DNA of 64,000 nt, taken from assembly GCA_037043015.1 (NCBI GenBank), contig CM073330.1, positions 5,357,263-5,421,262 of the forward strand, read 5' to 3'. The notes under the pieces are model-generated. The model was not told the origin of the DNA. It ran no database searches and saw only the letters and a list, made by a program, of their open reading frames with translations. How positions within the stretch are numbered: the first letter of the stretch is position 1; each line of letters opens with the position of its first letter. The DNA comes from Bryum argenteum. Its lineage: Eukaryota; Streptophyta; Bryopsida; Bryales; Bryaceae. A program made the position numbers and the translations under genes. Shown one piece after another: positions 27,792-54,369 of the stretch.

Positions 27792-28113
27792 CGCTGTAAT
27801 CCCTTGCTGCTGCTAGTACTGATGATAAACCCTGCTGCTCCTGCTTAGAACTCTAACCTTTGTTCCTCTCCATTGCCTTGCTGCATTACCACATATTCGC
27901 CAAAGCCACCAAAATTATCATAGCGAGCATTACGAGGTATGCCTGAGGCGATTCGAGCGATTGGGCGATAGAAGCATAAGTGAGCAAGGAAGCCTTGGAG
28001 GCAGGTCGGTAGCGCGGGAACGGAGATTCAAATCGGGGCACGTGCAACAATCGCATCACATATTCAAACTTACTCGGTAATTCCGAGAAATCCCTTGTAG
28101 CGATCATCACCAA
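27792..28113 (-). other. Conserved leader shared by Q/P-rich copies 1, 2 and 4
   Basis: The 5' flank of copy 1 is closely similar to 30,756-31,072 (copy 2) and 58,969-59,240 (copy 4). Shared landmarks on the minus strand: CCGCGCTACCGACCT, GCATACCTCGTAATGCTCGC, GGTGGCTTTGGCGAATATGT, then GGGATTACAGCG just before the ATG. In copies 1 and 2 one frame gives a short peptide ending PQAYLVMLAM...VALA.MW; another gives GGFGEYVV.QQG. Either could be an upstream ORF, and neither is proven. Confidence 0.55.
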
Positions 28114-28249
28114 TATTTATCATCCATAGTTTTCAGCAATTTACAGTGACTGATTCATGTTATCATTCATTCTTGCTCAGGTGTTCACGTCGGGCACTTC
28201 CCACCTCCTTGAACAACACAGACACAAATCCGCCTCTTAAGTACGTACT

Positions 28250-28792
28250 TACTGGTGCAGCACACGAACTCAATACCGCAATCAAACCTGGAACTCAAAG
28301 CGAATAAAGTTTATGGAAGTTGATACTCAACAAGGCGACCCTGATATCGAGACAGACGATTCAGCTGCATTTGGAAGCCATGGGTAGGTGGTAGCAAGTT
28401 CTGGGATGGATAACCAAGAGGTGTGATAGGGCCCTCGGCCGGCTTGGAGGTGCCATGGTTACCCTTTGATACATTGACAAGGAATTTGATGCGACTGTGG
28501 ACTCGAAAGTGCGAGTGCTGCACCAGTCGTTGATTCATTCGGTGCTAAATGCGAAGTGATCCATCGCTGCTTAGTCTTCAACTTCCCTCTTGTACTATGA
28601 AGCCTAACAGTGACCATATCGAATATGTTCGAGCCATTCTTTCGACTTGAGAATCTTGACAACTATGACTTCAATGCCTCCGGTCGAGGATGGCAGCAAC
28701 GAGGCAGTGACTATACCAGCATGCAAAGCAAGCCGATTGAACAAAAACGAGGCAGTGAATCGTTCCACGTTACAATTCGAGCGATAATGTGA
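28250..28792 (+). pseudogene. Internally deleted copy of the SKWPKT gene
   Basis: Starts with sequence matching the upstream region and first exon of the gene at 23299 (AGGCGACCCTGATATCGAGA), continues through a segment read as EFDATVDSKVRV, then jumps to the end of the later exon (CCTAACAGTGACCATATCG; ENLDNYDFNAS) and closes with SFHVTIRAIM and TGA at 28790-28792. All sequence corresponding to about 23,650-25,020 of the complete gene is missing, and the early frame stops after GSHG. It cannot encode the family protein. Confidence 0.8.
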
Positions 28793-29232
28793 TTCTTTAT
28801 TCAATATCTGATCGTTTCACTATAGATTTGAACCAGATCTACTTGTTTTGATATCATAAGGTAGTGTACCTTCGGTCCATTGGAAGATCTAAAGTGATCA
28901 CTATTGAACAGCACATATGCTCATTTCCTTACATAATCGGAACACCTCGTCTTGAAGCTCCCACTCAGGTCTTGTTGTGGCAATGCTCCCATGTGATTCG
29001 CCTTCTGTATAACCTGCAAAGAGAAACTCAAATCAGGCTGAGAACAGTATGCTACTTTCACGAGAAAGCCTATTTCTCAGGGTATCTTCGAAATTTCTAC
29101 TTGCCACCTGTTCAAAGACGAGTACATATTGATAATAAGCGCTCATGTGCGAAAAGTAAATCGATCTCCTGGATTGGAGTAATCATGGAAGGCTTACAGA
29201 CCGTCTCCTGCTTCGTACCCGATTCACCTCCT

Positions 29233-30755
29233 TCACTGGTTTTCTTTTTTCGGTTTTTCTTCTTTTCCTTCACTAGTTTCAGAGCGGTAAACTGATTTGT
29301 CATCGGAGCTAGTACTCTCCGCGAGCACTCCAGATGGATTGTTCGCCAGATTCACACTCGGATTGCTGACCGGATTCTCACTCAGAATGTTGACTGAATT
29401 CTCACTCGGTTTGTCGACCGGATTCACACTCGGATTGTTAACACGAGTGTCGGCTGGATTCTTCACACGGACCCTAGACCCGAATGGTTTCTTGACCGGA
29501 TTCTTCCTAGGAGCTACATTCGGCGGCCTTTTATACAAAATCACAGGAGGTTTTAACCGGGGGTTCCGGCAAGTAGTTACAAGTTCGCCGGTTAATTTTG
29601 AGAATTTCTGAAAGAAATAGAAAAGTATCCGGAAAAACCCGTAGAAAATTACACTAAAATCTTCTATAATCCGTATGATATGACGCAATAGCCAGATTAG
29701 TATCATGAAAGACCACCTGGACATGGACCGTACTATAGGATTTAAGCGGGTAAGGAGAAAAATCCCTCTCGAACTGTGCACAGGAGGTACATTCGGCGGC
29801 TCTTCATGCGGATTGTTGACCGGATGCACATTCGGCGGCACTCGAAATGGATTGTTAACCGGATTCTTCCCAGGGGCTGCATCCGGCGGCCGCATAGACC
29901 ACGCATTGGTAGCCGGACCCATCACAGTAGAAGATCTCGGCGGCTCTCCCAATGGAGTCAGTGCAGGAGCTACATGTTCCGGCAATCCAAACCAAGGGAT
30001 CCCCCAAGGATGTACACGTGCTGGCACTCCAAACCAATTGTGAAACGGAGGGGCTACATGTTGCGGATACACAAACCTATGAGGACCCCGATTCATCACG
30101 GGAGGTCCTCTCCGAGGCACTCCATGCTGACCGACATTCGAATACCTCACATGCGCTCCTCTCGGCGGCACTCCATACTGACCTTTCGTCGGAAACCTCA
30201 CAGGCGCTCCTCTCGGCCACAATCCATACCAATCGTTCATCGGAAACCTCACAGGCGCCACTATCGGTCGCAATCCATACTGATCTTTCATCGGAAACCT
30301 CACAGGCGCTCCTCTCGCCCGCAATACATACTGATCGTTCATCGGAATCCTCCCAGTCGCTACTCTCCGGGGCATAGTTACCAGAATCGTCACAGGATCT
30401 ACACTCGAGGTTGAGTTACTTAATATGCCCTGGGGTGGCGATCCCTTCAACACATTCGAATATCGGACCCCGTTAACACATTATTACGCACTAGTACGAG
30501 GTTCACAATTCGACAAAAATGAGTTATTCAACAAACATCACACCCTGACAACGCACTTGCATGTTCTATTGTTGCGTAATCAAAATATTGCCATCATGCG
30601 AGAGTTCTAGCGACAGTAGTCACCTGAGGAACTGACGGAATCTGATTCACGGAGTGCTGTCCAGCCCTTTGCTGGACCGGTGGAGTTGTCGCCCCGGTAG
30701 AAGATGTTAACTGCTGCGGATCGCTATCTGTGGAAGAAGCTGGCCGCTCCGCCAT
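29233..30755 (-). pseudogene. TAF12-like Q/P-rich paralogue, copy 2
   Basis: Exon 1 begins at 30755 (MAERPASSTDSDPQQLTSST) and matches copies 1 and 4, but a small insertion near 30,600 shifts the frame into a stop after 52 residues, and a further in-frame TAG follows near 30,570. The long exon is still open over 1.2 kb (30444-29233): GSPPQGIL, 17-residue repeats (LRPIVAPVRFPMNDWYG), a hydrophobic stretch (MILIWLLRHIIRIIEDF, then FYGFFRILFYFF), and a tail with NPSVNPVDKPSENSVN-type repeats. The open long exon next to a broken first exon is odd. Either decay is recent, or translation starts differently. Confidence 0.6.
30050..30350. repeat. 51-bp minisatellite in the copy 2 long exon
   Basis: Five or six units related to the copy 1 array: CGGAAACCTCACAGGCGCTC, CTCTCGG and CCATACTGATC, with 51-base spacing. 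The encoded unit is RGAPVRFPMKDQYGL-like. Copies here resemble one another more than they resemble copy 1, which suggests separate expansion or homogenisation. Confidence 0.8.
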
Positions 30756-34496: not shown

Positions 34497-34678
34497 GTTG
34501 AGGATGGTGATTGCTGCGGATTGCTATCTGTGGTTGAAGGTGGCCGCCTTGCCATCGCTACAATTTCTTGCTGCTTCTGGTACTCGGTGAAAGCACACTA
34601 GACCCATCTACTTTGGGGGTCACAAACACAAATTCTGGAAGGTTTCAACTTTGTACTTCTGTTTTACATATGTAGAAT

Positions 34679-34820
34679 CACTACTAGATTACAGCACTGT
34701 GAACTACGGTAAAAACGTAGCTAAATACACTGGGCTCGGCCGAATTCGCTCTCCCGAAATCGTCATTTTCGTAACAGGCGGTCGTAGCTATTTAACAAGC
34801 TACGTTGGGGTGTAGCATCC
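34679..34820. repeat. Left TIR and subterminal repeats of the CACTA element
   Basis: Terminal CACTACTAGATTAC, then subterminal copies of the motif in both orientations: ACGTAGCTAAAT, TCGTAGCTATTT, AAGCTACGTTG and GTGTAGCATC. In En/Spm such repeats bind the TNPA protein. The same role is inferred here. Confidence 0.8.
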
Positions 34821-35750
34821 GTTACATTTTAGACCTGTGCCGGGTACTGCTCGTTCCCCAGCATTTGGAGTTCCCAAGCGCAAACGTTGCACGTGGCAGG
34901 GTGGTGGCCCACTTCTGTGATTTGCCAGATATGTACGTAAATCTCGCATTCTGAACTTTTCAGCTCGTGAGGAAAATAGTAAACAGTTACGGTAATAGAT
35001 AACGGGGTGAATTACATTGACTGCCTGGTAAATATTAGAGTTTGCGGTAAGTACTCCTTTTGGTTAATAAATGGTGTAGTTGACTTTGTCAAAAGAATAC
35101 GGGAATGTAACAGCCAGAAATAGATTTACTTAGGATAATAATAGAAATTTTGGGGGAATTTGGTTCATTCGATGATGTTTGTATGCGTTATATCTGCGAG
35201 TAACAAAGTGGCGTGATATTGAGACGTGGATGTGATTGAGTCACCGATTGGATTGTTAAATTAAGTAAGGATAACCATTCCCGATTGGAGGATCGGCATA
35301 CCCGGCCTGTCGACATTTTCCACACAATGCATAGCATGTTCCTCAATTTCATAATGAAATGTACATTGCATCCTAAAATCCTCAGTTTTGTACATCACCA
35401 TAGAAATTAACACATGATAATTTAGATACTAATCCATAACACATTATAGGAGTCCGAAATTGCATCCTCGGTACGAGGACGTAAAACCTGCTGAGTTCAG
35501 AAAGGTCGAATGCCCCGCATTACTCTGCAGTACATTTTAGAGAATACAGTATGGTCTGCAAGAGTCATATATAAAAACATAATACCACATATATTGCCTC
35601 TGTCAATGGTCTCTATTGTATTCACAACATATACATGATTTACGTAGCATGTCTGAGAATCTGCAAAAATGTCGAATTCCTCTACCAGATGATGCGTTAG
35701 TCGCGATCGTCAGCACTTGTATCCTCCGAAGATGACCCGACTTGCTCTTT

Positions 35751-38700
35751 CTAAGTTCCGTCCTCCTCCGAATCGTTGGCCTTGAACTCAGCTTCCGCCT
35801 CGTCGACGTCCTCCTGTCCCTCTTCCTCACTGCTGGCCGATTTCGAAGAGCCTGATCCGCACGACTTCTCCTCCTTAGATGCCTCACCCTCCTCGTCATC
35901 ATCTGATGAGGTTCTTGCACTATCCTCTTCGGTGTCAGCTGACTCCTGAGACTGCGTTTTTTTCTGGGCTGATTTCGGATTGGCCGCATGCTTTATTGCC
36001 AACACTCTGTCTGGCTCCCCTGCCTTCCTGTTGTAGCGCCTGTGAGTCATCTCGAAGAGGCTCCGAATCCCATCGCGCTTCCCTATGGCCACCTCGTCTT
36101 CCGTGGGCACCCTCTTGAACTCATCCTCCTAAAACGGGTGTCATTACAGCATATGTCAATGGTGAACTCAGCACTTGTGCATCCTAAGGATAAAAACCTT
36201 AAAGTTCCAGTGTTAAACTAATTCGGTCACAGCACTTCATACTTCAGAAGTTCCCGCACTCTCTCTACCTTGTTACAAATGAACTCTATTGTACCTGGAA
36301 TGGCAACAGTTTTCGGCAAACTTACAAATTTTGCAAAAGAAATTTAGAACTATAACTACCTATAAACATATGAGTCTGTCCTTGCCATTAACTTCTAGAA
36401 GTACAGGAAAGCACTGAGTCCTAGCGATGTGAAGATCGGAACTGGAACATCTGATATTACAGATGTCGAGAAACATAATCAGGTGGAAGGTGGCAAATGG
36501 ACTGAGGGAAGGGCTAGTTTCTACGGCGGCCACTCCTGCCAGCACGAGTTGAAACCTGCCGCCCCCGACAGTCATTGGGGCCCTGGTCAAGTCCATCTTC
36601 GCTGGGGTGGGATTCTCCACGAGTGCCGCGATCAATCTTCGCCGCCCCGACAGTCAGTGTGGCCCTTCTGAAGTAACCATCGCTGGGGTGGGCTTGTCCA
36701 CGGATCAGATGTCACTCTCTCAGGTACGGATACTCAACGGCCCTCATAGAAAGGCACGCATTGAGCTCAGAGAAAGGATCCAAAACGCAACAATCAACTG
36801 TAAATGGAATTGCAAGGAATATGGAATGGATACTTACAAATTTTTTGATCAAGCCTGCCACTCCCAGCGAACCGAGGCGGTGAGTGTATCCCATTCGCTC
36901 TGTCCTTGCATCCGCGGCCCTTTTGCATTTGTTAGATTTTTCCTGGTACGATCGGTTAGAAATGGAGGCCCAGATATTATTCCAGGCCTTGACGGTAAGA
37001 CCATGAGCAATGGGGGTATACTTCTTCGAGTTATGTCTCTTCATATGATTCCTAGTTCTCTGTCTTCTCTGCCTAATATTTGTCGCTACATCTTCTAGTA
37101 CATAGTCTATATCATAGTTCCCCGGGTACAAGGACTGGACTCTATTGGCAAATGCTCTTTTTAGTGCTTTGTCCTGATGAGGCCATGATACGTCCCATGG
37201 AAAAATCCAAGGAGCTCGTGCATGCGTGTAACTCTGCATATGTTTCCAGAAAGTCCCTATGGGTTGTCCCAACGCATTAACCTCGCATGGAGGGACATCC
37301 TTAACAGTATCCCACATGCCTATGGAATGGACATCGCTAATGACGTTGCTCTCGCTCGGCAAACTTACAGCTGAGGATTCTATGGAATGGGTATACATCC
37401 TCCCCGCGACTTGGCTTACCTGGCGGCCCTTTGATGCCTCCTTCGTATGCACAGACCGCTTTGACGCTTGTCCCTTGCTGCTCTCTCGAGGTGAGGGCAC
37501 TTCCTCTCCTTTGCTTTTCTTCTTACCTTCAGCCTCCAGTGCCGCCTTTTTTTTTGCCAAGTCCCGCATTGCCTTCTCAATACTCTCCATTTCGGCCTGT
37601 TTCTCTGCCGCCCTCTTTTGGCGTCTTAACTCCTTCTTGGACAGCTCTGGACTTGCAGGCGGTGTTTCCTCTTCCGGCAACATCTCCTTCCTCTTACTCT
37701 TCGACTTATCTCCAATTTGACAACTGTCAGCACCGCCATCCTGCACTCTAGTTCCTCCTAGCTTTTCTTCGAGCATCTGCATGTGCAAAGACGGTAACTG
37801 TTAGTGCAGGAAGAACTGCATCTACAGCAGCTGACATGTCGACTACATGCACTGGCAGTTGAAATAGGAAAGAAATTCTCTGGGAAGTCACATACCTCCG
37901 CTTTGGCTCGCAGGTACTTCGCTTGCTCTGTCGGCGATAGCTTGCTGAGGATTGCGTCGAGGTAGAGTTTTGGCTCTTCCTTGCTCTTCCCTGCCTTCGA
38001 CGCTGTTTTGCTTGGGGACACCACAGGCACTAATGCCATTGGTGGAGGAGAGGCCTTTCTCCGCGGCTTGTTCTGTCGTGGTGGCCGAGAGCTTGGAGTT
38101 ACCTGCGGTTGAGAAAGGGGAATCGGAGATGGGCTACGGGATCTTCCTCTAAACTCTGCCAAGCACTTTGCTACTGTTAGGTGACATGCCTTTGGCTTCG
38201 TCTGAGGCTCAGGGCTGCAAATATGAGCATCAGTTTCGGGGAATTCAATCCCAACTAAGACCGGCGGTGTCCGATTCTGGCTTCCCGTCTCGGCATGAGG
38301 CGCTGCGGAAGGGCTTTCAATGATTGCATCAGTTGCTGCTTGTTGGCTTTCGAAGTCTTCCTGACGCGCTGCTGTCGACCTTCCTAGCTCTCCATCTGGC
38401 GCGTCATTTGGGCTCCCGACCTCCACCAGAGGCGCTGCTAACGGGCTTCCCATGTCTTCATCTGCATGGGGGAACTCAATCGTACTTGAGGTGGGCGCTC
38501 CTTCAAGTAAAGGTTCAGAAAGCAAACCCAATTCCCCTGCGTGCATCCTACCCACGTTAGTCACTTCGGAATTTTTAACCAATGATGCTGCAGGTGGAAG
38601 GTGAGGTGTGATTTCAGTGCTTGTAGCCGTTGTGCCGCAAACCACTTCCTTTTCTGTGCCTCGGTGAGTGCTGTCTTCGCCAAGCAATACCGCATTGGTG

Positions 38701-39771
38701 ATCGGCATTGCGTTCGACAGACTTGCGTACAGATTCAGGGACGGCTCCTCCGAGGACGACACTTTGCATTGTACAGCACTCGGGGCACCCTTCAGAAGAG
38801 TTGCGTTGGTGACATCCCCGGCTGGTACTTCTCCTCTCTCTTGTGCATGTTGTGGAATCCCGCCATCTGCTTCGTGTGTGTTTTTGTCCACATGCTGCTC
38901 TTCACTCTGTGGGTGTAGACCTGGGAAGGTGAACCCTGCGTGTGGAACCAACGGAATTTTATATCACTCTAATTACATAAGCTCAGAAATGCACTTGGAA
39001 TTCAGAATTTCTACGTGGTTGTATACCTTGGCCGTCTGCTGAACAAGTACCGATTGGCGCATTCTCTTCTGGCTGCTTATCCGCATCCAGGTACTGCTGC
39101 AAACTCCTGCGTGCAATCTCGGTCCCCGACCTTTTCCCGCTGCTTTCCAGCAACTGCGTCCTTGCCGAGTTGTCAACGTTGTCGTCCAGCACATGAATGA
39201 GCATCTCCGGCTCCTTCTTCTTCCTCGACCCTCCAGATTGCTGCAACTTCTGCATAGTTTCGGAGGAACCTGTGCATTGTTCCGTGCCACCAGTTGATGG
39301 TCCAGTCGAGGTGGCAGAGACAGAGATTTTTGATTGGCGCCGGCTTGTTTTCTTCCTCTTCGCTGGCGATTTGATCGAGACATCGATCACAGTATCTGCA
39401 CTCCGCAGGTACATTGATATTGTCTCCTGCTCCTCAAAGGCTCCGTTCTTCTTGCGCAGGATTTTCTTCATCCAGAGTTGCTGCTGCCCTCTTCCAATCT
39501 TCTTCCGCTTTCCTCGCTTCGTTTCCACACGGGCTTCGGTACCTCCTGACGCCCCCGTGTCCATTGCTCCTGGTGTAGGTTTGGGACTTCGCGTCGCATA
39601 CGGTTGCTTCACAGGCATGGGAAGATCTGTTTTCTTGTACAAGGTATCCACCTCTTTCACTCTCAGATCATCTCCCTCGCAATTGACACCAGTGTCATAA
39701 ACACTCCTACACTGCTGTGACGGCGCATCCCCAGTACCTCCGCCACTTGCGGCTATTTCTACCTCTCCCAT
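35751..39771 (-). CDS. TNPA-like protein of the CACTA element (Transposase_24 type)
   Basis: Second protein of the CACTA element, expected to bind the subterminal repeats. Exons in transcript order: 39771-39027, 38935-37896, 37776-36838, 36128-35751. GT-AG junctions and phases close, giving 1,033 residues. The start MGEVEIAASGGG is preferred over an upstream in-frame ATG. Residues 1-600 are low complexity with basic clusters (RGKRKKIGRGQQQ; PPRQNKPRRKASPPP). A coiled, charged segment follows (LSKKELRRQKRAAEKQAEME). The recognisable domain is at about 790-905 (LGQPIGTFWKHM; AWNNIWASISN; EKSNKCKRAADARTE; GYTHRLGSLG), the plant En/Spm-associated Transposase_24 pattern. Residues 910-955 (RSLFEMTHRRY) precede an acidic tail (SEEEGQEDVDEAEAEF). 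No frame break was found. Confidence 0.82.
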
Positions 39772-40249
39772 TGAAGAGAGTACTGTAAGTGACAAGGACA
39801 AGACAGGTTGAGGCGGGGTATGAGAAGAACTACAGCAGAGCACGAAAACCTGTGTCTGTAGATAGAACAATGCGGGAACCGAAAAATGCTCAAACTAAGC
39901 CCACAAGAAGTAACAAGAATCAGAGAAGGAAATATGTCAAGCAGCAGTGTCACTGTACACCCGAGTGCATATCAACGACAAAGAACAACGTCTGCATCAC
40001 GGCAAGAGGAATGCACTACGGGTTCTACATGCAATTGCAATGTTAGATGAAGTTAGTAGCGCGAATTCTTGTCTTCAACTCTGCGACTAACCACCGCTCT
40101 CTGTATTCACAGGCCTGAGTACTCACTACACTCCCGACGCTCTAGACTCAGCACTCCCTCACAGCACAGACAGATCACCCTCGACACAAACACTGCACCC
40201 TGGACACAGAGACAGACAGAGCACTCCCAACACAGAGACAGAAAGAGCA

Positions 40250-40715
40250 CTCCGGACACCGACTAAGGACACAGGACTTAGCGACTCAGACACTGGACGA
40301 CTCCACCTCTATATACTCAGCACTTCACCGACTCCTTAGACGAGGACGGACTACCGAGACTACACTTCGGAGACAGCACTCCTGCAGAGACAGAACTCCT
40401 GCCTTACAACACTCCTGCCGAGACAGTACTCCTGCCGCACTACCGAGACAGTACTCCTGCCGCACTACCGAGACACCACTCCTGAGACAGCACGGATTAC
40501 CGAGACAGCACGGACTACCGAGAAGGTGACCACTCCTCGACGCAAAAACCGAGCGACTCACCGCCTCTGCAGACAACGCTCCCGCCGAGACAGCACTCCT
40601 GCCGCACTTCAGAGACACCACTCCTGAGACACCACGGCTTACCGAGACAACACGGACTACCGAGAAGGTGACCACTCCTCGACGCAGAAACCGAGCGACT
40701 CACCGCCTCTCCTGC
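40250..40715. repeat. Tandem repeats in the divergent promoter of the CACTA genes
   Basis: Short units such as CCGAGACAGTACTCCTGCCG and GACACCACTCCTGAGACA recur many times. A longer unit starting GGACTACCGAGAAGGTGACC followed by ACTCCTCGACGCA occurs at about 40,510 and 40,657, 147 bases apart. The block lies between the start of the TNPA-like gene and that of the transposase, so it may be a shared regulatory region. Frames across it are artefacts of the repeats. Confidence 0.75.
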
Positions 40716-41494
40716 CAGCCCTCAAAACTCACAGCAATTGCGATTCGCGACTCAGGACTCTGCGACTCAGCGACTCGAAGACTCCTGGACTCAGCGCTCA
40801 AAAGAATAATCGAGTCGACAACTCGCCGGAATCAAACACCTCGCGGGGTCCACACTCAGCACCCTCGAAGCAGACGCTCTCGCACTCGCATAGTGACCTC
40901 ACTACTCCAGAATCAACAATGCTCTCCACTCGGACACACACTCTCCGTAATCTGCGTAATCTACGACGATGAGAACAGAAGAATCGCTCGGAGCGTATGC
41001 AGGGGGGGAGGAAGCAAACTGAAGTGGGAAAAACGACTCCAGCAGGAGGAGGTGCGGCGTCGGTAACGGCCATTCAATGCAAGTCATCATTCACAGCACT
41101 CTGTACTTCCCATCACTCGCCGGCCCCTAGGTATGACTACTGTAATGAATTGTGTAACGCTTGCTACTCGATTCGGAATCGTACCCACTCATGAAAATTG
41201 GATTAGCCTAATCTATTGTTTGAAAAACAAAATAATGTGGGTCAAACCGGTAATGCATTTAAAAAATCTAAGTAATACGTACTGATTTGTATGAATATAC
41301 ATGTAAGCTTGGGATACGTATTTCTTTAAGTATGTATTATATGCTTTTAATATATTATATTAACCATAACTTTGTTTTGAATTTTGAGGTAATGTTAATG
41401 AGATTAATTTTTTTGGTCAAATTATTTCCTTATTTTTGGTAATGTGTCACATTACGTATGTTTTGTATCATCGACGTATTGTAGGTCTATAAGA

Positions 41495-44400
41495 ATGCCT
41501 CGCCGACACAAAGCTGTTGGGGTTTCTCAATTCACTCCTCCCACCCCAACACCTATACCCTCAAATACAGAGGACATTCCATCCTCGCCGCCCAGAACAA
41601 CATACTCTAGAAAAAGAAGAAGACGGGAGGAAACAACATTGGAAGATGAACCCGATATACCAGAGTTCAAGGTCTACTGCCCATGCTGTAAATGTGCACA
41701 ATTGGATAAGCCAAGTATGAGATATATCTCCATTGTTGATAGTCATATTGATCGTTATAAGATGTCCGATAAGTATCAGGTGAATCCTTCACAACTCTTA
41801 TCTTCAATTCCTGAATAGTATGATTCTTGTAGTTACAGTATAAAAATATTATAATATATAAAAATGAAATTTGTAATGACAAGGTACGGTGTGCACTTGG
41901 TATTTCAAGGGGGTTGACAATAACTTCCAATAAACAAGGGTTTATGTCGAAATCGTCAAGTACTATTTCATGGAGTTTTGAAGGTTTTTTGGATCGCAGA
42001 TCAATTAATTTTCATTCTAAGGCAATACAACCCTAATTTTTTCCTCTGTCGCAGAGATTGTATGAGGCTCAACGGTTAAGTGTGGACCCTTCCAGTTTGG
42101 ATCATAGTTTTGACGGCACAGAAGAAGTGGAAGGCAGTGAAGAATTATTTCAGGAGCATGATATATATCGAGACGACAAGTTTGTATTAGAAGAATACAT
42201 GGATCTTCTTCGTGATTTCGATGCACAGGGTCTTCAAGGAAATGACCAATTTCCTCAAGACATGAAGGCTAAACTTTCGGTACTTGAACAAGAAGCTTCC
42301 ACCATGATTTTTGATGGGGCAACATCAAGTCGTTTATCAATTATCTTCTTGTTCCTAACCATCCAGGTGATAAATGGATCTCAAATGTTGCCATGGATGC
42401 CATTTTTAAAGCAATTTCAGAGAAAGTAATCCCTCCGAATCTAAACTCCAAAATGCCTACAACAAGAGTCAAGCACGCAAAATTGTAAGTGATGTGGGTT
42501 TTGACTATATCGTCTATCATGCATGTCCTTGTGACCTAACCCTTTACTATGGCCCTATCAAGAAGGACTTGAAATTCTGCCCCAAATGTAATCTTTCCCG
42601 GTATAGTGAAACAACACAAAGCAAAACATTTCCACGTAAGGTATGTTTCTGGAGCCTATTTAATGATTGTTTCTCATAGTTACGTATATGTGACAAATTC
42701 TTCGTAATTCGTATTTAGCCCATATTAGATGACTTAATAAATACACATTATTTTTCAAAGATGTAGTACAATTTAATTTGTGACATTAATTTGTTGGGAT
42801 CAAAACATTGACTGTATAGAATGTTGATAACGATGTCGGCTACTTCACATGCGATTACTGTTATAAATTAGGTATGGTGTATTGTTATTGTAATCACATC
42901 CTTCCCAAAATATGTGCAACAAAGATGCGTCATGGATACTTGAGTCGTTTGTATTAGTAAATTGCCTAAATCCAATGCGAAATTGTTTATATTAGTATAT
43001 TCCCGAAATTAAAGGCATGTATGAAATCGGCAAAGCTAAAGTTCTATAACGATGAGTATAGAATGTGGGGAAAATAAATAAAAATGAGATTCCGGTTTTT
43101 GTATTTCCAATTAAATCTTTGTCAGAGTGAGTTCAATCCCGAGAGAATGAAAAATGTTTTTAGAAGAACCAAACGTCACACTCCAATTTTATAATAAACA
43201 AAGTCTGTTAGAATCTTTGAAGTTCTCGAGTGCTCGAGTATTATCCCAAGAATTAATTACATTTGTTGTTACTATGCAGAGAATGTGGTATTTCCCTATA
43301 ATACCACGCCTTCTTGCTTATTACCGGAGCCTGAGTTTGTCTCCTCGCATGATATGGCATCGTGACAATAGAAGTCTTGATGAGGTTATGCGGATACCGG
43401 CTGATAGTCCAGCTTGGAAGGCAATGGAGGATAAGTACGACAAAATGAAGGATGCCCGAAGTGTTATGTTACAAATTAGTACGGACGGTATCAACCCCGC
43501 TGGGTTGAATTCAACAAGCAATTCGCTATGGCCTATTACATGCACTTTGCTTAATTTGAACCCTAAGCTTGGAATGCATAAAGGACACATTCTTTTGTCG
43601 ACTATCGTTCCAGGTAATACTCCGAACATTAAGTTTTTGTCCATCAACTTTCATTTTTTTTCCAACCTTATTTTTTCTTCAACACATTTGTTACTCACTA
43701 CTATATGAGATTGAGTTGTGACTATAGTCATAGAGTACCGATTTCAACAACACCTCTGTCACGGGGCATAATAGTTCCTTTGGGAACCTAGTAAGAGTAC
43801 AAAGATTGAAGGTACTTATTATAAAGGCCGACGTTTAGAAAGAACCAAAATTCGGTTCAATAAGGAATAAAAGACTAATTGATTGTGACCTTTGTGCAGG
43901 GAAAAAAAAAGTTAAAAATTTTAACACATACATGGAGCCGTTGATAGATGAGCTTTTGAGGTTGTGGGTGGATGGAGTTGAGGCCTATGATGCGAACACT
44001 AAAGAAAATTTCAAACTTTATGCTATGATGCTATGGTCATTGCATGACTTCCCGGGGTATGGAGTATTTTCTTCTTTACAAACTCAAGGGTTGAAAGCTT
44101 GCCCCCCTTGTGGCCCAAATGTGATAGAGTCAAAATACTGTACGTACTTGAGAAAAGTAGTATATATAGGGCATAGGAAATACCTCCCTATGAAGCACAA
44201 GTACCGGGCAAATAGAAACCGACACAAATTTGATGGTTCTTCATATAATAAAGTTCCTAAGCCGGAGAGAACAACAGGAAAATTTTGGCTCAAACAATGG
44301 AGGAAGGTTGAAAGAAATAAAGTTCTCCTCAAAGACTCAGGCATGAAGGAAAAGTCGATCTTATTCCGTCTTCCTTACTACAAGGTTAGTACTATGGAGT

Positions 44401-47146
44401 TATTTACCTTTTCCCTACTTGTCTCTTACGTGCAATGCTATAGTTACTTGTACAAAGTTCCTCCGTTTAAAGAGTAGTACACATCAGAATATGAGGAAAC
44501 TAGGTCACTAGAAAATGCATGATAGAAGTAGTAGTGAGAGTTTGGAATCTTTACTAAGAAACGAGTTGATGGCCAATATATTTGGATGTTGTAGTTCTGT
44601 AACTTCTTCACTAATTGTATTATAAAGTTTTGATTACATAGTTAAACCGGTAGATATTTAGTAATGAGAGATGATATGAGTTTGTAATACCGTAGTAGTA
44701 GGCATAAAAGATGAAAGAATACCTCACCAACAGATTACACAATCTTCACATAATCTTTTGTAGATGTAATATTTACAACTAAGATAAGGTGTCATCACAT
44801 TGAATATACAAACATTTACCATTTGTTACGTAGATATCTAAAAAGTGTGTATAAAAGCAAGGGGCGTTTATAATATTCCAGATAACAGTCATATATATAA
44901 TTCATCATTACTACACTTAATGCCCTATTGTTTCACCCGAAGTAGTATAATAGTTAAGTTCCGAAAATAAATTATTAGTAGAATTTCATGAAATTAAGGT
45001 TGAATTAGTTAGGAAATTTGTAGTGTATGAAATAAGACTCAGATACATAACATTTATGAAATTGATGAATTTCATCTTTGTGCTTCAATTTTCGTAATCA
45101 TGTAAGCGACCATAAATATTGTTCACTATGCATGACTCCTTAATTATTGTTTTCACATACTTCTAAGTTCGACCTTTTTTTGTCTACCAGCACCTGCTCG
45201 TCCCTCATTTGCTAGATGTGATGCATACGGAGAAGAACGTTTCAGCTTCTTTGCTAAAAACATTCTCAAATTGTAAGGGGACGAAGTCCGATTCACTTGC
45301 ATTACGCAAGTCTTTACAACAATTCAATGTACTGCAACGATTTCACCCGGTAGAAGATGGAGTTGATGAGAAGGGCCTAACGAGATGGACATATATGCCA
45401 GCTGATTGGATTTGGAAGGCTCAAGAGTACGATAATATCATCCACATGATATCATCAACGCGTACTCCTTTCGGCTATGGATCAAGCTTCCGCCACAAGT
45501 TCAACAATCGTAAGCTTGTAGGTTTCAAAACCCATGATTATCATAATGTGCTTCATGATTTACTACCCATTGCCGTTAGAGGTACTCTGACGCCCGGTAT
45601 TCGAAGTATTGTATACCGGCTATCCGCCCTTTTCCGTTGGGTGTGCTCAAAAGAAATTAAGATATCAGATTGTCGAAATATGAAGAAGGAAGCGGCTGAG
45701 ATATTGTGTGAAATGGAAATACATTTACCTATTTCTATTTTTGACATACAAGTCCACAATATCTTGCATATAGTAGAAGAAGTAGAACTTGCAGACCCAG
45801 TTTCTATAAGATGGATGTATCACATTGAGCGATACCTTAAAGTATTAAAAGACTTTGTAAGACAACGAGCTAGACCGGAAGGGTCGATCGCTGAAGGATA
45901 CATATGTGCTGAATCTATGTTCCATGTGAATGAATATACTCAAAGGTTGGATAGGTTTGCAACCCGATTACAAAAACCAACAGAGGAGGATGTACGATCG
46001 AAAGGGATAGTATTGCCAAAGTTATCATCTCCTAAACCTTTGGATCCAATTTTCAGGGAACAAGCACATAGGTTTTTATTACTTAATGCTCCATGCATGG
46101 AACCTTGGAGGGAGAGATATGACTTAGAGTGTGGGGACTTGGTACATAAACCTTCATTCAAGGATTGGGTTCAAGATACAGTTCGGAATGACATATCTAA
46201 AAATAAGACAGTGTCCCAAATGGTTTTAGATATTATACTTGGTCCAGGAGACAAGGGCCATTTCTACAGTATGTGTTGGGCCTACGGAAGTCACTATCGC
46301 ATAATGGCCAGGGATTTGACCAAAAAAACTACCTTTGACAGTGGGGTATCGGTTCTATACGACATTGGAGGGGACAAAATAGAGTTTTATGGCTACATAG
46401 ACAACATTGTGAAGTTGAATTTTGATAGCTTTGAATCAGTTTTGTTCCGTTGCGAATTTTGGGATTCTATCATTAGGCAACATGGCTCAAATGCCACTGT
46501 ATTAGAGGATGAATGTGGTTTCGACCGTGTTAAGGCAGGGGAATTCATAAGGTCATCGGGAGTTGAAGATGATCCCTTTATTTTTCCAAAGGATGTGAAT
46601 CAGCTGTTTTACGTAGATGATCCTATGAACCAAGGCTGGAAGTTAGCTATTAAAGTGAAGCCGCGATCAAATCTGGTAGTATACAAGAGGCCAGAGTTGT
46701 TGGCTACAGCATCAGAGGTTGAAAATGTAAATACTTTACCTTTTCAAGGAAATTTGCCAGGACCGGTCACTGGTGAAGGAGGTGCAGAATTGTTAATTCC
46801 GGATGCAACAGTATCGGAGTTGCTGACTGTTGAAGCTGATGATGATGCCGGGGAAGATCTGGGCGTTGACGAAGAAGATGAGGAAAACAACACAGTCCTT
46901 GCGGACATGACAGCAAAGGAATATTTCTCCGATCAAGAAGAAAGACCGGCTGCCTTCTTAGATGACCCAGAGGAATTCGAGCAATTTGCGAGTGAAGATG
47001 AGTTACTAGACATCGAAAGTGATGGCGAAATGGAGAATGACACACCACTGCATCGTCTGGGTACTGCGGCTTCCGTGTCGACTAAGGTACAATACCAGGA
47101 ACTCATCAAAACTACCTTTTCTTGTTGTCTCTACAAAAATGTTTAA
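41495..47146 (+). CDS. TNP2/TNPD-type CACTA transposase with frameshifts
   Basis: DDE/D transposase of the En/Spm superfamily. Exons: 41495-41779, 42055-42640, 43280-43613, 43900-44384, 45191-47086; the last short exon is unclear (a stop comes soon after 47178 in any joined frame, or at 47146 by read-through). Domain order: zinc-like CPCCKCAQL near residue 61; Transposase_21 region with YHACPCDLTLYYG, FCPKCNLSRY, STDGINPAGLNSTSNSLWP, EPLIDELLRLWVDGVEAYDA and LLDVMHTEKNVSASLL; DUF4218 (LLPIAVRGTLTPGIRS; RARPEGSIAEGYICAES); DUF4216 (YDIGGDKIEFYGYIDN); acidic C-terminus. Exon 2 needs two shifts: near 42,340, after GATSSRLS, and near 42,483, where a GTAAGT follows AKL. Otherwise the frame is long and intact. 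Family call is firm, activity doubtful. Confidence 0.85.
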
Positions 47147-48009
47147 TTTCTACGTTTTCATTCTTCTGTACATTAGGGACGCGAAAAGTGAGGACGTTGG
47201 GGCGGCAAGTACACCGTATCTTTATTGGCTATGGTGGCGGCGTTTTCGACTGGAACGCCCCTGTTTGTCGCTCCCAGCCTTGAAGTCAAGGAGCGGGACC
47301 ACTCATGTGGCCAAGGAACAGCAGTTACAGCACCAAAACCTCCACATGTAGCCGAAAAGGCTGCGAGCACGTCATCGGGAATATCCATCCTCCAATGAGG
47401 GTATTCCAGTAAGTAATCCTGTAAACCGTAATCGGGTAATCTTTCGAGTTACTAATTAAGTATCACCGAGGCTTTCGTCATTCGGCATCTTTGCTTGTCT
47501 CTCTCGTTAAACAGCAAGGTTGTTGCAGAGCCATACGAACAGGATGTGAAGATGTTGTCCCAGTTGCAGCGATTTGAGTTCTTGACTTAAGAAGCACAAG
47601 TGCAACGAGTAGGAGAGTAGCCAAAGACGGTGTACAGGGAACCGGAAATTGGCTGGCCTCATACCCAGATATCCAGGTAATACTGAATCACGCCTCCACT
47701 GGTGCAATCCAAATTTCTACATCACTCTGGACTGTCTATCGGCAGATGTAATCAGATTTTGTGGGAACCTCTACGGTATGGTGTGCTGATGGATTGGAAG
47801 CTCGTTTTGTATCTCTGCTGGTTTCATGTATACACACAGGGAACGGAAACAGAAGGTGCCGCAGTTTTAAAAACATGCTCCTGTAGTTTTCTGGTACGGC
47901 AATCGCATTGCCTTGAAATATAGAGAGCAGAAGTTGATAGCATTGTGTCAAACATGAAGTGCATGAGTTCTGACGTGTACTCTGTCGTGTAGGGAGATCT
48001 CAACATATA

Positions 48010-48435
48010 GTGGCCCGTACGGATTCTGGTATCCGTCATACACCGACTACTGGCAGAACGACAGTCCGTCACTTAGGAACTGAATACCAAATTCATGGTG
48101 GCAGCAAGACAGTAACCGTAGAGCAAACACTGAAGCGAGCGAGTGGGGACGTGGACTTTGTTCCGCATCATGGATTTGAAGGCAGTGAACTCCTTCCAGC
48201 AATCCCTAATGTCATTGTGGCTGAAGAAGTGTGGCCCAAGATCTGCGGCGATAACCATTCTAGTCAGATACAGAACATGTTTAAAATGAGATTAGTGTCT
48301 AAGTTTTGGTGCGCCTTCATTGACAATACGGAGCTCATGGACCGCCTTCAAATGTCCAAGTATAATGCGGTTGGTCCATGGAGATGTAAATATGCTCCAG
48401 GCAGGTTTCAGATTTTTGCTCGCCTCTTAGAGTAG
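48010..48435 (+). CDS. F-box-like reading frame inside the CACTA element
   Basis: Open frame of about 141 residues with no ATG at its start, so an upstream exon or a later start is likely. The centre resembles an F-box: LPAIPNVIVAEEVWPKI, then KMRLVSKFWCAFIDN, with the usual Leu-Pro, Trp-Pro and RLVSKFW spacing. The frame ends ARLLE with TAG and has no repeat domain after the F-box. It is on the same strand as the transposase, 0.9 kb downstream, and may be a captured host fragment or a third element gene. The stretch 47,150-48,009 has no supported exon. Confidence 0.45.
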   Translation: MARTDSGIRHTPTTGRTTVRHLGTEYQIHGGSKTVTVEQTLKRASGDVDFVPHHGFEGSELLPAIPNVIVAEEVWPKICGDNHSSQIQNMFKMRLVSKFWCAFIDNTELMDRLQMSKYNAVGPWRCKYAPGRFQIFARLLE

Positions 48436-49479
48436 TGCAGATTGATGTCTTATTTCGTGACAATGCATTAGTCTCGTGAATGCCAGTCCATGATGCAACT
48501 AGGACTCTTTTTTGAAAAGGTCAGGGCCAAGTTCAGAGGGGGCTCGTTCTGAGGAAGGCAATAAAAGCCGCAGTAAGCCTCACCCGATGTTAATCGTAGG
48601 TATTATAAAATTTTCATACCAGAAGAGCTGACAGAGGCGATGATTTTCTCCCTATGTGGAGCAGTGGTGGTACATTCTGATAGTGTTATTGCGTTTGTTA
48701 TATTTATTTTGAGTTCACCGGTTTTTTAAGAATCATCGAGTTTAAATGAAAATGTTTTACCAGGGCCGTTAGTTTGGCAGATTTTCGGGACATTACTTAC
48801 AATGAAAGTAAATCGGAGTTCTAAATACGGATTGTAGAAGAACACAATACGATAATCAGACATTTAGCCTAAAATTTGGCCGAAGTTTATATGTGAGAAC
48901 GGCACCCCCTATCCTAAACGTATACTAAACGTAGACAAAATTACCTCTCCATAAATCAATTTTTACAGATGTGATGGGCAAACCTCGTTATTAGCATTGA
49001 TCGGTTATCCCAGTTTTGTTACGTTCGGCAAGATAACTTACATACCACCTTTTATCCCTAAACTTATGTTCAGTAATCTAAATTATAGATTTGCTAAAAT
49101 TTCGCACAAATTATACAATGTCTCGAAATATGATATCACAATATATGTATCTGAATAAAAGGGTAAAATAATTCAAACTCAATTTCATCATTTACCTCTT
49201 CCTAGTAATACCCAATCATCTAGTTAAACAACTAAGTGAAATCTGAATCTACATAGGAGGAGGGATTAATTTTATTTTTTTTTGCAACTGTTGTCAAAGA
49301 TCCAGGTTTAAATTACTGTAAGAACCCGCTTTCCGGATAAGCAGCTAGGTAAGACGGAGTTTACTCAGTTTAAAATGCTACGGTTAATGTATAATTGCAC
49401 AATCTCAAGCTGTAGCCCGCTCAGTACTGGACACGTGTTTTGACAGTTCACGTAAGGATGGCGACTACAGTACTATAGC
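48436..49479. other. Non-coding right part of the CACTA element
   Basis: AT-rich sequence with no gene, repeat array or frame of note between the F-box-like ORF and the right subterminal zone. Confidence 0.5.
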
Positions 49480-49678
49480 CGCACACGAAGGGAATCCCGT
49501 CGGAGGGAACGTCGCGTTCTCCGGATGTTGAGCAGTTCTCCACGAACGTAGTGCGAACGTAGCTCCGGACAGCCGGTTTTCGATATTTTTAAAAACGTAG
49601 CCCACATCATCCGTAACGTAGCAAGATCCGGAAACGTAGCATGAAAAACGTAGCTACCAGGGTAGTATTCTAGTAGTG
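49480..49678. repeat. Right TIR and subterminal repeats of the CACTA element
   Basis: Six direct copies of the ACGTAG motif within about 120 bp: GAACGTAGTG, GAACGTAGCTCC, AAAACGTAGCCC, GTAACGTAGCAAG, GAAACGTAGCATG, AAAACGTAGCTACC, then the terminal GTATTCTAGTAGTG. The density is higher than at the left end. Confidence 0.85.
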
Positions 49679-49681
49679 AAT

Positions 49682-51287
49682 TTATATTTTTTGATATGTT
49701 TTGCATGATTTGGGTGACATAATGGTTGAGGATGATTTTCCAACAACCAAAGTCAAAAAATTCCTTAGATTTCTATGTGTACTTAGTAGATTTGTCATTT
49801 TGTTCCTGGGGTCACAGTGAAATTAAGAATGCAAATGTACTCACCACGAGCTTATTACAACATGAAAGTTGTCAAGTGTACTTGTTTTGAAAGCATAATA
49901 TGAAGCTCTTTTAGATACTTGAAGTTGATATAGTGTGGAGAGCCTTAATTTTTGTGGTTTTGCAGTTTAAGACCAAAATTCTTCATCAAAGCATAAATGC
50001 CTCAAATTTTGACTTTTTTTCGATTTTTTTAAGTGGAATCGTGCGTACCGGAATGAGTTCTTCCCTCGAACAATGTCAAAATTTTGAAAAAACCATCGTA
50101 ATGGCAATTCCAGTTTTCGCTGTTTTTGGGCATGAAAAGTACTGTTGTGTACACTCAATACATCATGTACACTATTTTGATGACGTGGCAAACTGAAACA
50201 CCTCGTTGTGCAGTAAAGGCACTTGTCAAGCCGTCATTTGCCACCAAGTCGGGGGCCGCCACCTCTGACGTAATATTGATTTTGGCGGTTATCTTCTCCA
50301 ATCCAATGTACGCATCTTTGCTTCTAATTCATGTTCTTTGTCGTTACGGAAAATTCCTTGTGCAATGTGCACGCATGTTCTCGTTTATGAAGTGGGAGCA
50401 AAACATTTGCATGCTTGTACCGATAAGTCCTAGGTAGATTGTTGCTTGTCTATGTTCAACGTCCAAGACTATTACTTGGCGATCTGTTTCCTACTTTTAT
50501 GCGCTTCTTTTGCGTTTAGGTTGGATCCAGGGCTGGCAAGCCAGAGACACCCGCGTCTACGGAGGAACAATCGCACGCAAGCTTGACTATGGCTGTAATG
50601 TAGTGAACGGACAATCGATTGACCGGTAAGCCGGTGAGGCGCGTTGCGAGCAAGTCAGGATTCACCAAGGGCACGTGATTGATGTTGCGCGTCTTGGGCC
50701 TGACCTTTGCCTGTGTCAGAATATGAACGACAGCTCGACATACCCGGCTTGGCTTGAGGCGGAGATCTCGCTTGGAAGTGAGCGTCCAGTCCGGCTGTTG
50801 CGCTGCGCTATCGTAGCAAGGCTCAGCTGAGTTTGGTTCGACCGAAATTGAATTGCAGCCAGGTCTTTGGCCATTTGCGCCGCCGATCCCGCGGTCGGCA
50901 GTCGATGTGCCCCTGCCCTTCCGCTGCGCTCCGCTCTGCACTCTCATTAGTTACACAGTACACGCAGGCTACTTCTAAACCCATCCATCGTGAATTTTGC
51001 TTTCGTTTGGTAATGAATAATATTGGAAAAAGACGCCGCGTGCGTGAGGGAGTGTCCCGTCCAGGTCCCGCCCAACGACTTGCAGAATGTGCAGAACGTC
51101 AATGCGATTACGGTGCGAGCGGTGAGCGGTGAGCAGTGAGCAGATTTTCACGAGCAATGAGCCAGTGAGCAGATTTATAGGGAATATTCTGGTCCAAAAG
51201 TGAATATTAAATGATTTTATTCGAACAAATTCAATATTAGTGTACCCCTAAAACCGTGGAAAATGCGTCGATACATAACAATCTAGA
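49682..51287. other. Intergenic region with a GC-richer island
   Basis: 49.7-50.5 kb is AT-rich and empty. 50.52-51.17 kb is clearly more GC-rich and has a 143-residue minus-strand frame (50947-50516) and several overlapping frames, none of which I recognise. GTGAGCGGTGAGCAGTGAGC and related short repeats lie at 51,116-51,172. It may be the remnant of a mobile element, but I see no domain. Confidence 0.45.
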
Positions 51288-51393
51288 CCCTATAACCGTG
51301 GTGTATTGGAATTGGAATTTAGACCAATTGGCAATTCGCCACGGTTGTAAGGTCTAAATTCCAATTCCGACCCTTCAACCGTGGCGAATTGCC
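51288..51393. repeat. Two overlapping hairpins
   Basis: Arm A GGAATTGGAATTTAGACC (51308-51325) has its exact reverse complement at 51351-51368. Arm B (51330-51354, GGCAATTCGCCACGGTTGTA plus AGGTC) has a near-exact reverse complement at 51369-51393. A further partial copy of the B complement (GACCCTATAACCGTGG) sits at 51294. The order is B', A, B, A', B', so the two hairpins exclude each other. Confidence 0.9.
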
Positions 51394-51779
51394 TCAATGA
51401 ATCCGTTGTTTGCCTCTTCACCCTTTGGGGCCGAGCTTGATTTTGAGGGCTGAATGAAAGTAGAGGGCACTGAAAGTGCGCAACTAATGAGCCCATGCAC
51501 AGTGAATTTGAAGCCCACTTGGCCCCACAATGACAACAAGATGGTCGTCAGGAAGCACACGAAAAATGTGAAGTCCGATTCGAAAAGGAGGACCTGCATA
51601 CACACCCCAAGGTTGTCATATCAGGCGTGTTGAGGTAATCGGGCGGACTAAACGGACGTACGATTGTCCCGGACGGACGGGCGTGCCCGCCCACCTTGAT
51701 TGTAGGGGGTGTGTACTTTTTCCATGGGTAACAAACTTTGTAGTAAAAAGCCACGTAAGATGTGACGTGTAAGTCCATC

Positions 51780-52445
51780 GTGGCGTCGGGGCGGGTGAAA
51801 TTGTGCCAGGGCGGGTAAACTTTTGTTAGGGCGGGTGAACTTTAGAGGGGGCGGGTGAACTTTTGAGGCGGGTGACAATGGTGGGTGAGGGGGTATGGTG
51901 GAGTGCGGGAGGGGGTATGGTGGGTACGGAAGGGGGAGGTGGGGCGAGTATGGGGGGTGGGGCGGAGTGAGAGGGAGGTGGGAGGCGGGTATGGGGGGTG
52001 AGGCGGGTGCGGGGAGGGGTGGGGTGGGTATGGGGGTGAGGCGGGTATGGGGGGGTGGGCGGGTGCGGGGAGGGGTGGGGTGGGTATGGGGGGGTGAGGC
52101 GGGTAGGGGGTGGGGGGGGTCCGAACTCGGATCTGAGGTGTGGCGGTTCCGGGGGTAGGGCGGAGTTGGAGGAGGGGGGCGGGTGCAGGGGGTAGGCGTG
52201 TCTGGGTGGGTAGGGCGGGTCTGGGAGAGGTAGGGTGGGCGCGGGGGGGGGGGTGTGGCGGGCACCGGGGGGGTAGGGCGAGTATCAGGGGGGGATAGGG
52301 CGGATACCGAGGGGGATAGGGCGGGTACCGAGGGGGGTAGGGCGGGTACCGGGGGGTAGGGGGAAGGGCGTTAGGGAAAGGGGGGTGTATGGGAGTAAGG
52401 GGGGTAGGGGAGGGGGAAAGGAGGGGTAGGGGAGGGTGTAAGGGC
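51780..52445. repeat. G-rich low-complexity array
   Basis: Degenerate repeats of GGGCGGGTGAACTTT at the left end grading into GGGGTGGGTATGGGGGTGAG and finally GGGCGGGTACCGGGGGGTAG units. Runs of three to nine G are dense, so G-quadruplexes are likely on this strand. The large proline-rich minus-strand frame here is a consequence of the composition. Confidence 0.85.
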
Positions 52446-52479
52446 TGTTACTACGTTTTTTAAACTTTTTTAATTTAAA

Positions 52480-53300
52480 AAATAAATAAAAAGAATTGAA
52501 GAATAATGAAATAAACAAAATACCACCCACCAGTATATTCTTTAGTCTTAATATGAATTTTGAGCGTAAAATCAAATATATGATTAAACCATTAGGATGA
52601 TAAATTCATTTGTAATATAGTATTGAGAAGAAGAATCAAATAAACATAATACCACCCACCAGCATATTCTTTAGTCTTAATATAAATTTTGAGCGTAAAA
52701 TCAAATATATGATCAAACCATTAGGATGATAAATTTATTTGTAATAAAGTATTGGGAAGAAATATCAAATAAACATAATACCACCCACCAGTATATTTTT
52801 TAGTTTTGATATAAATTGTGAGCGTAAAATCAAATATATGATTAAACCATTAGGATGATAAATTTATTTGTAATATAGTATTGGGAAGAAAAATCAAATA
52901 AACATAATACCACCCACTAGTATAATCTTTAGTCTTAATATAAATTTTGAGCGTAAAATCAAATATATGATTAAACCATTAGGATGATAAATTTATTCGT
53001 AATATAGTATTGGGAAGAAAAACCAAATAAACCTAATATCACCTACTTGTATATTCTTTAGTCTTAATATAAATTGTGAGCGTAAAATTAAATATATGAT
53101 TAAACCATTAGGATGATAAATTCATTTGTAATAAAGCATTGGGAAGAAGAATGAAATAAACATAATACCACCCACCACTATATTCTTTAGTGTTAATATA
53201 AATTGTGAGCGTAAAATCAAATATATGATTAAACCAATAGGATGATAAATTTATTTGTAATATAGCATTGGGAAGAATAATGAAATAAATATAATAGAAG
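52480..53300. repeat. 129-bp satellite array, about six copies
   Basis: TACCACCCACC or its variant recurs at 52521, 52650, 52779, 52908, 53037 and 53166, always 129 bases apart. Each monomer also contains TATATTCTTTAGTCTTAATA, TGAGCGTAAAATCAAATATA and AACCATTAGGATGATAAATT. Monomers differ at only a few sites. The array begins and ends inside a monomer. Confidence 0.95.
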
Positions 53301-53589
53301 GTGGGATTGGAGAGAAATAGCACACATTTTAAGAAGATCATTTTTTGGGGATGTGGTAGCTCGAATTTGAAATAGAGGGGGGAATCCGTTTGTGGTGAGG
53401 CAAATTTGAATAAGAGGGGGAAGTACGGAAACTTCAATTCTCTCTTTTCTTGGATCCCCCCTTGGCTCCTTCTTCCACCTACCGGGTATTTTTAGAGTAA
53501 TGAAGTCCAAACATTCCTCACGAAAGCCGGGATTTGGACTTTCCCAGATATAGTGGGGGGGAATGTTTGACTTTTCTACGATTTAATTG

Positions 53590-53765
53590 ACTATGCCTTC
53601 CCTTCCCTCCTCTTCTATCTCCACTCCCCTCTCACCCCCCTCACCCCCTCACTCCCCCTTACCTCCTCCGACCTACTCCCCCGATATCCGCCCTACCTCT
53701 CCGGTACCCGCCCTACCCCCCCCGGTACCCGCCTCTCTATTTCCCTATACATCTTGCACTTCCCC
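53590..53765. repeat. C-rich arm, inverted relative to the G-rich array
   Basis: CTCTCCGGTACCCGCCCTAC, then CCCCCCCGGTACCCGCC, preceded by ATATCCGCCCTAC. Its reverse complement matches the right end of the G-rich array (GGGCGGGTACCGGGGGGTAG). The earlier part, CACTCCCCCTTACCTCCTCC, is also the complement in kind. Confidence 0.75.
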
Positions 53766-54369
53766 ATGGCTCAAATAGTAGCCTTGCAATGATAAAAATT
53801 GCCAAATATGTTACAAAGTAATCAATATAGTTGAAACCTAGATCCCTAGCACTCAAATTATACCTTATCTTCAATATATCTTCAAATGGATCTAGGTTTC
53901 TATCACCAATACAACACTTTAATTGGAATCCATTCTAAAAAATAAATTCAAAATCTAACGGTGGTTGAAGGAGATCTATCTCTTCAAAAATCATCCACTT
54001 TTTTACTTTTTTCATCGTAGAAATATCATTGCAAAGGCAATACTAAAATTATCTGGATCAAAATACTTCCAACTACAAAGATTGTGGGATGCATCTAAAG
54101 ATCACACTTGTGTAAAAAAAATCATGCAAAAACATTTTTGATGTCACATAATAGGCTTACAATGGTAAAACATGCCAAATGTTTAAAAACCCAAAAAAAA
54201 ACACTCCCTTCACTAAAATGCATGCCATTTTTTCATACTTAATTGTATGGGTCTGCAATTTCTAGTATGTAGACTAGACTTAATTTGACACCCAACCCAA
54301 GTGATTTCGTCAAAAACAAAGTCCAAATAAAAAAGTTATGGCTCTTCAAAGTTCATGTCCTTCGTTCAA
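53766..54369. other. AT-rich spacer
   Basis: No gene or repeat array seen between the C-rich arm and the 151-bp repeat. Confidence 0.5.

Follow-up and report, generated by a model that had tools for sequence, protein, structure and literature searches.

By combining the structure of the element's ends with its relatives and its unoccupied target sites elsewhere in the genome, we conclude, with a probability of about 0.95, that positions 34679–49678 of the window (the whole 64,000-nucleotide stretch analysed) hold a full-length member of the CACTA (En/Spm) family, exactly 15,000 bp in size, which from its sequence would have inserted, by a cut-and-paste mechanism, into one copy of a dispersed repeat of about 1.5 kb and whose mobility genes have apparently decayed since. 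The element carries the CACTA...TAGTG ends, the 3-bp duplication and the Transposase_21 transposase of the superfamily, together with direct and inverted subterminal repeats that are clear at the right end and thin at the left (Table 1). The insertion is ordinary in kind, yet unusually well proven within one genome by a sister copy, by 3-bp duplications read copy by copy and by empty sites; it is the gene set, not the insertion, that is the interesting part.

Table 1. Features of the element and of the repeat that it interrupts (window coordinates).
Feature	Position	Strand	Evidence or remark
Dispersed repeat, left part	34586..34678	+	Flank alignments to other copies
Left AAT target-site duplication	34676..34678		Empty sites have one trinucleotide at that point
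Left terminal inverted repeat, CACTACTAGATTAC	34679..34692	+	Family copies start there
Left subterminal repeats (ACGTAGC at 34715, inverted GCTACGT at 34799)	34715..34805
ORF2, last exon, acidic C-terminus	35751..36128	-	dN/dS 0.09–0.22 in 7 of 7 pairs; junction to next exon inferred
ORF2, conserved exon	36838..37788	-	dN/dS 0.14–0.17 in 6 of 7 pairs; 0.77 against the C7 copy (frame shifted there)
ORF2, middle part, poorly conserved, open in the window copy; exon limits and frame uncertain	37761..38963	-	dN/dS 0.49–0.62 in 7 of 7 pairs
ORF2, first exon region	38986..39894	-	dN/dS 0.18–0.32 in 6 of 7 pairs; 0.46 against the C7 copy
Minisatellite between the two divergent genes	40195..40802		Unaligned gap there in 8 of 10 long copies
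Transposase gene TNPD	41498..47086	+	Pfam domains, homologues; exact exon limits mostly inferred
TNPD, matched and tested stretches	41498–41800, 42253–42640, 43289–43630, 43839–44474, 45185–47086	+
ORF3, a third conserved gene of about 142 aa; window copy without ATG	48007..48435	+	Frame conservation, genome co-occurrence
Right subterminal ACGTAG(C) array	49546..49654
Right terminal inverted repeat, CACTACTAGAATAC (complement)	49665..49678	-
Right AAT target-site duplication	49679..49681
Dispersed repeat, right part	49679..51099	+	Flank alignments to other copies

The initial annotation had described intact termini, a perfect AAT duplication and dense subterminal ACGTAGC repeats. The termini and the AAT on either side stand as described, and the terminal inverted repeats are 14 bp long with 13 of 14 positions identical. 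With up to three mismatches allowed, the end pattern matches 19 times in the window against 8.8 matches expected from shuffles; just the two element termini are exact, while the remaining 17, five of them inside a 129-bp tandem array at 52.5–53.3 kb, carry two or three mismatches. The subterminal repeats are indeed dense at the right end, whose outermost 150 bp hold ACGTAGC five times in either orientation (maximum of two in 2,000 first-order Markov simulations), but only fair at the left, where a count of two in 150 bp was equalled in 5 of 2,000 such simulations. In the interiors of 11 long copies, 131,665 bases in all, the motif occurs twice.

A search of the genome (258.8 Mb in 25 contigs) with the left 400 bp and the right 350 bp of the element returned 34 and 40 matches, respectively, each including the element itself. 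Twelve other copies, 10 long and 2 short, were excised and compared with the window copy. All 12 share the same left start, and the right stop is the same in the 10 of 10 whose right end was found. Perfect 3-bp duplications flank all 11 copies, of the 13, in which both ends are readable (AAT, GAT, TGA, ATC, TAG, AAC, AAG, CTA, AAA, GTC and ACA); the C6 and C1 copies stand outside this count because their right end is missing from the fetched stretch. Aligned pieces of 11 of the other copies are 68–90% identical to the window copy, the exception being the much closer copy on C7. The two short derivatives measure 2,608 bp and 933 bp. The latter (C2:31665278-31666210), which has the duplication ACA and an altered first base, keeps both ends and is possibly a MITE-like form.

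The target itself can be read from places that the element does not occupy. Its flanks (92 bp on the left, 400 bp on the right) adjoin at 10 other places in the genome with coordinates that overlap by two bases, and at the three of these where the bases were read a single AAC stands where the window has AAT, the element and AAT; at a fourth, the alignment passes straight through the junction. The AAT is thus a true target duplication. An empty site holding one AAT had been anticipated, and the single trinucleotide was found, but as AAC, so that one target base either differed in the interrupted repeat copy or has changed since. The initial annotation had further placed the insertion in a duplicated gene cluster. 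This is not supported: because the flanks adjoin at those 10 other places, the target is not gene sequence but a copy of the dispersed repeat, which begins GGTGAAAGCACAC and whose 10 copies with both flanks are 87–96% identical across the right 400 bp. Tandemly duplicated sequence adjoins the repeat on its left.

The transposase gene TNPD matches Transposase_21 (PF02992) in two exons (E = 4.1e-18 and 1.6e-30), DUF4218 (PF13960; E = 1.2e-28) and DUF4216 (PF13952; E = 9.7e-8), and it has plant homologues; no grasses appear among the named relatives of the transposase piece in the 120 listed of 135. Across seven copies, dN/dS is 0.10–0.32 in the later exons (43839–44474 and 45167–47143; one value undefined), 0.19–0.73 in the stretches before these, and 0.36–1.11 in the first exons, the very first scoring 0.40–1.11 and 0 against the C7 copy; for the first exons the sequence comparison thus offers weak evidence of selection. 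A GT donor-like site closes the frame near 47086 in all 11 copies, as AG/GT in 10, and may explain part of the stops seen at 46701–47143 in 8 of the 11.

The antisense gene ORF2 has three conserved exons with dN/dS of 0.09–0.32 against six copies and of 0.15, 0.77 and 0.46 against the C7 copy. Control frames give 0.27–2.57 for three frames antisense to ORF2 (two of them mostly 0.27–0.49), 0.30–2.75 for an overlapping same-strand frame and 0.42–1.20 for three frames in or near non-coding parts; since these ranges overlap, dN/dS alone does not cleanly separate coding frames here. In the middle part, the majority frame meets at least one stop in each of 11 copies, and some of it may therefore be non-coding. 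The exon at 36838–37788 has five unnamed homologues of 56–64% identity. Pfam returned no known domain in ORF2, no solved structure matched at E ≤ 1, and a fold model was weak and helical (pLDDT 55). A resemblance by eye to a TNPA of the Transposase_24 kind was set aside, as PF03004 gave no match up to E = 10, with the exons taken apart or two joined, and a profile comparison with four PF03004-bearing proteins reached a probability of just 0.2%.

Downstream of the transposase, the frame of ORF3 extends over 423 bp with no indel in any of the 11 copies and no stop in 9 of them, against 3–13 stops in the other five frames, and its ATG is present in 9 of 11 copies, being missing from the window copy and from C1. 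Its dN/dS is 0.21–0.45 in six of seven pairs (the C7 pair has zero synonymous changes), a range that overlaps the control frames, so that the case for the gene leans more on frame conservation. Matches to ORF3, with identity down to 24%, number 82 in the genome, or 76 once merged, and for 59 of these 76 sites a same-strand transposase exon stands no more than 15 kb upstream, while 17 have none; random placement gave a mean of 0.24 such sites and a maximum of 3 in 1,000 trials (the best 79 transposase matches were used and some contig sizes were estimated). This proximity makes an origin as a captured stand-alone host gene unlikely. Counted from the transposase side (150 of 399 candidates scored, 147 of the 150 used and three overlapping ones dropped), ORF3 follows within 20 kb downstream of 52 of 57 transposase matches at 70% identity or more, the window included, of 9 of 22 at 43–60% and of 0 of 68 further ones at 36–49%, where its absence may reflect lack of sensitivity.

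The same-strand position also fits a reading in which ORF3 forms the final exon of TNPD, or of a transcript produced from TNPD by alternative splicing, comparable to TNPA in maize En/Spm. The donor-like site that closes the TNPD frame and a TAG/G acceptor-like site before ORF3 in 9 of 11 copies speak for it. The stretch between donor and ATG, however, varies in length out of frame among copies, which together with the kept ATG and the indel-free frame fits an independently started ORF; we regard the spliced exon as a plausible competitor that we would nonetheless bet against.

The F-box profiles PF00646 and PF12937 matched 2 of 17 ORF3 members below the cut-off (best E = 0.062 and 0.14), and the unrelated family HEM4 did equally well with 4 of 17 (best E = 0.036). 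One member with such an F-box match, L068, has no transposase exon in its 15-kb neighbourhood. The window copy gave no F-box match, and the fold predicted for it was too poor to use (pLDDT 35). Among solved structures, the sole hits to ORF3 were four designed proteins, with E down to 1e-7 when summed over repeats, which we discount as composition matches. We offer tentatively, as an idea unlikely to hold in full, that the element belongs to a three-gene CACTA lineage with a transposase, a divergent second gene and a short third gene that is selected, confined to the lineage and perhaps F-box-like. If so, the third gene could influence the transposition complex or counter host silencing, which would make it a candidate helper or anti-silencing factor; kept in frame and tied to the lineage, it would add a new component to a classic transposon system.

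The nearest comparisons are with other CACTA elements and families. En/Spm of maize and the 20.5-kb Tgmt* of soybean have CACTA ends of about 13 bp, a 3-bp duplication, a tnp2 transposase and deletion derivatives, and Tgmt* has asymmetric subterminal repeats, 4 on the left and 24 on the right (PMC2613891); our element resembles both in its ends, duplication, asymmetric subterminal repeats, transposase and derivatives. In contrast to these systems, in which one complex gene is described as yielding both the transposase and a DNA-binding function (PMC2613891), it has an antisense conserved second gene and a short third gene after the transposase. CACTA families with two ORFs, a transposase and an ORF2 described as of unknown function, have been reported (PMC4158355; two ORFs also in PMC8195511), and the antisense ORF2 layout may already be known; the first of these sets shares the transposase and second gene with our element, in which the conserved third ORF is extra. 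Chenopodium CACTA elements combine ORF1 with a variable ORF2 and carry added Transposase_24 or Peptidase_C48 domains (PMC8978399); the variable second gene is a likeness, whereas Pfam found neither domain in the element studied here. Coe1 of Beta vulgaris likewise counts a Tnp2-domain transposase among its three ORFs, but the other two are described as retroelement-like and the element is a composite inside LTRs (PMC2426827), while our ORF2 and ORF3 gave no retroelement-like match. A search of mostly open-access literature showed no CACTA lineage that has an F-box or in which a third gene is conserved; the accounts name one further protein besides the transposase, and by that measure a lineage-tied third gene would be new.

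We propose that the element moves by cut and paste, with TNPD, encoded on the plus strand, acting on the CACTA ends and an element-encoded DNA-binding protein probably assisting it at the ACGTAGC repeats, as in En/Spm. Candidates for this helper would be the antisense ORF2 and the downstream ORF3, neither of them identified by homology. On entry into the dispersed repeat, a 3-bp staggered cut, itself deduced, would have been repaired to leave the AAT on both sides, the duplication that the empty sites display. The copy would have been mobilised while a working transposase, its own or one supplied in trans, was available.

The transposase gene of the window copy is interrupted, a property that bears on autonomy and not on family membership. 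It lacks one base near 42367 and another near 42471, deletions that none of 10 other copies shares; at 42253–42640 these copies have no frame shift in 10 of 10 and no stop in 9 of 10. The element had been called complete, which describes its ends but not its coding sequence, given these deletions and an ORF3 without its ATG. Since the TNPD and ORF3 frames have decayed after insertion, movement today would occur only in trans. It is improbable, by our estimate, that the element is still autonomous, its TNPD deletions and lost ORF3 start being assembly errors or being bypassed by splicing. Elsewhere in its tested TNPD stretches, and throughout the three ORF2 exons that are conserved, the window copy does lack stops and shifts (in the C7 copy the tested TNPD stretches are open and ORF2 is frame-shifted). 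Divergence from the C7 copy is moreover clustered, as sequence errors can be, with 27 substitutions in the 500 bp from 42679, a cluster that may stem from gene conversion or assembly error; the deletions fall within about 350 bp of it, and could be sequence errors. Both deletions nevertheless lie outside homopolymers, in the stretch that shows no shift in any of the 10 other copies, and the ORF3 ATG was changed by a transition.

The C7 copy (C7:5110951-5126272, 15,322 bp) covers all 15,000 bases of the element in unchanged order and differs at 242 of 14,950 aligned bases (1.62%), besides a 346-bp stretch that is absent from the window copy. When five other copies serve as the outgroup, 80 of these changes are assigned to the window copy and 83 to the C7 copy, and 79 stay undecided. 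At a grass rate of 1.3e-8 changes per site per year, which may not be that of the host, the two copies diverged about 0.6 million years ago, a figure that dates neither insertion exactly. Relative to the other copies the window copy is young, which bears out the earlier view of a recent insertion. A chance AAT match around two unrelated half elements joined by rearrangement into a 15-kb unit drew no support and is vanishingly improbable, given this sister copy and the contiguity of the flanks at the unoccupied sites.

Two further repeat-rich regions lie in the window. The interval 51789–53733 comprises a G-rich array, 6.2 copies of a 129-bp unit and a C-rich array; a query with 51090–53800 found at least 445 genome matches, with 40 out of 1,016 candidates scored; some of the matches stand in tandem, for example at C4:5551415-5556248, and the region is a separate satellite-bearing dispersed repeat. 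At 26141–30453, two long antisense ORFs, with no Pfam match, run across 51-bp and related tandem repeats.
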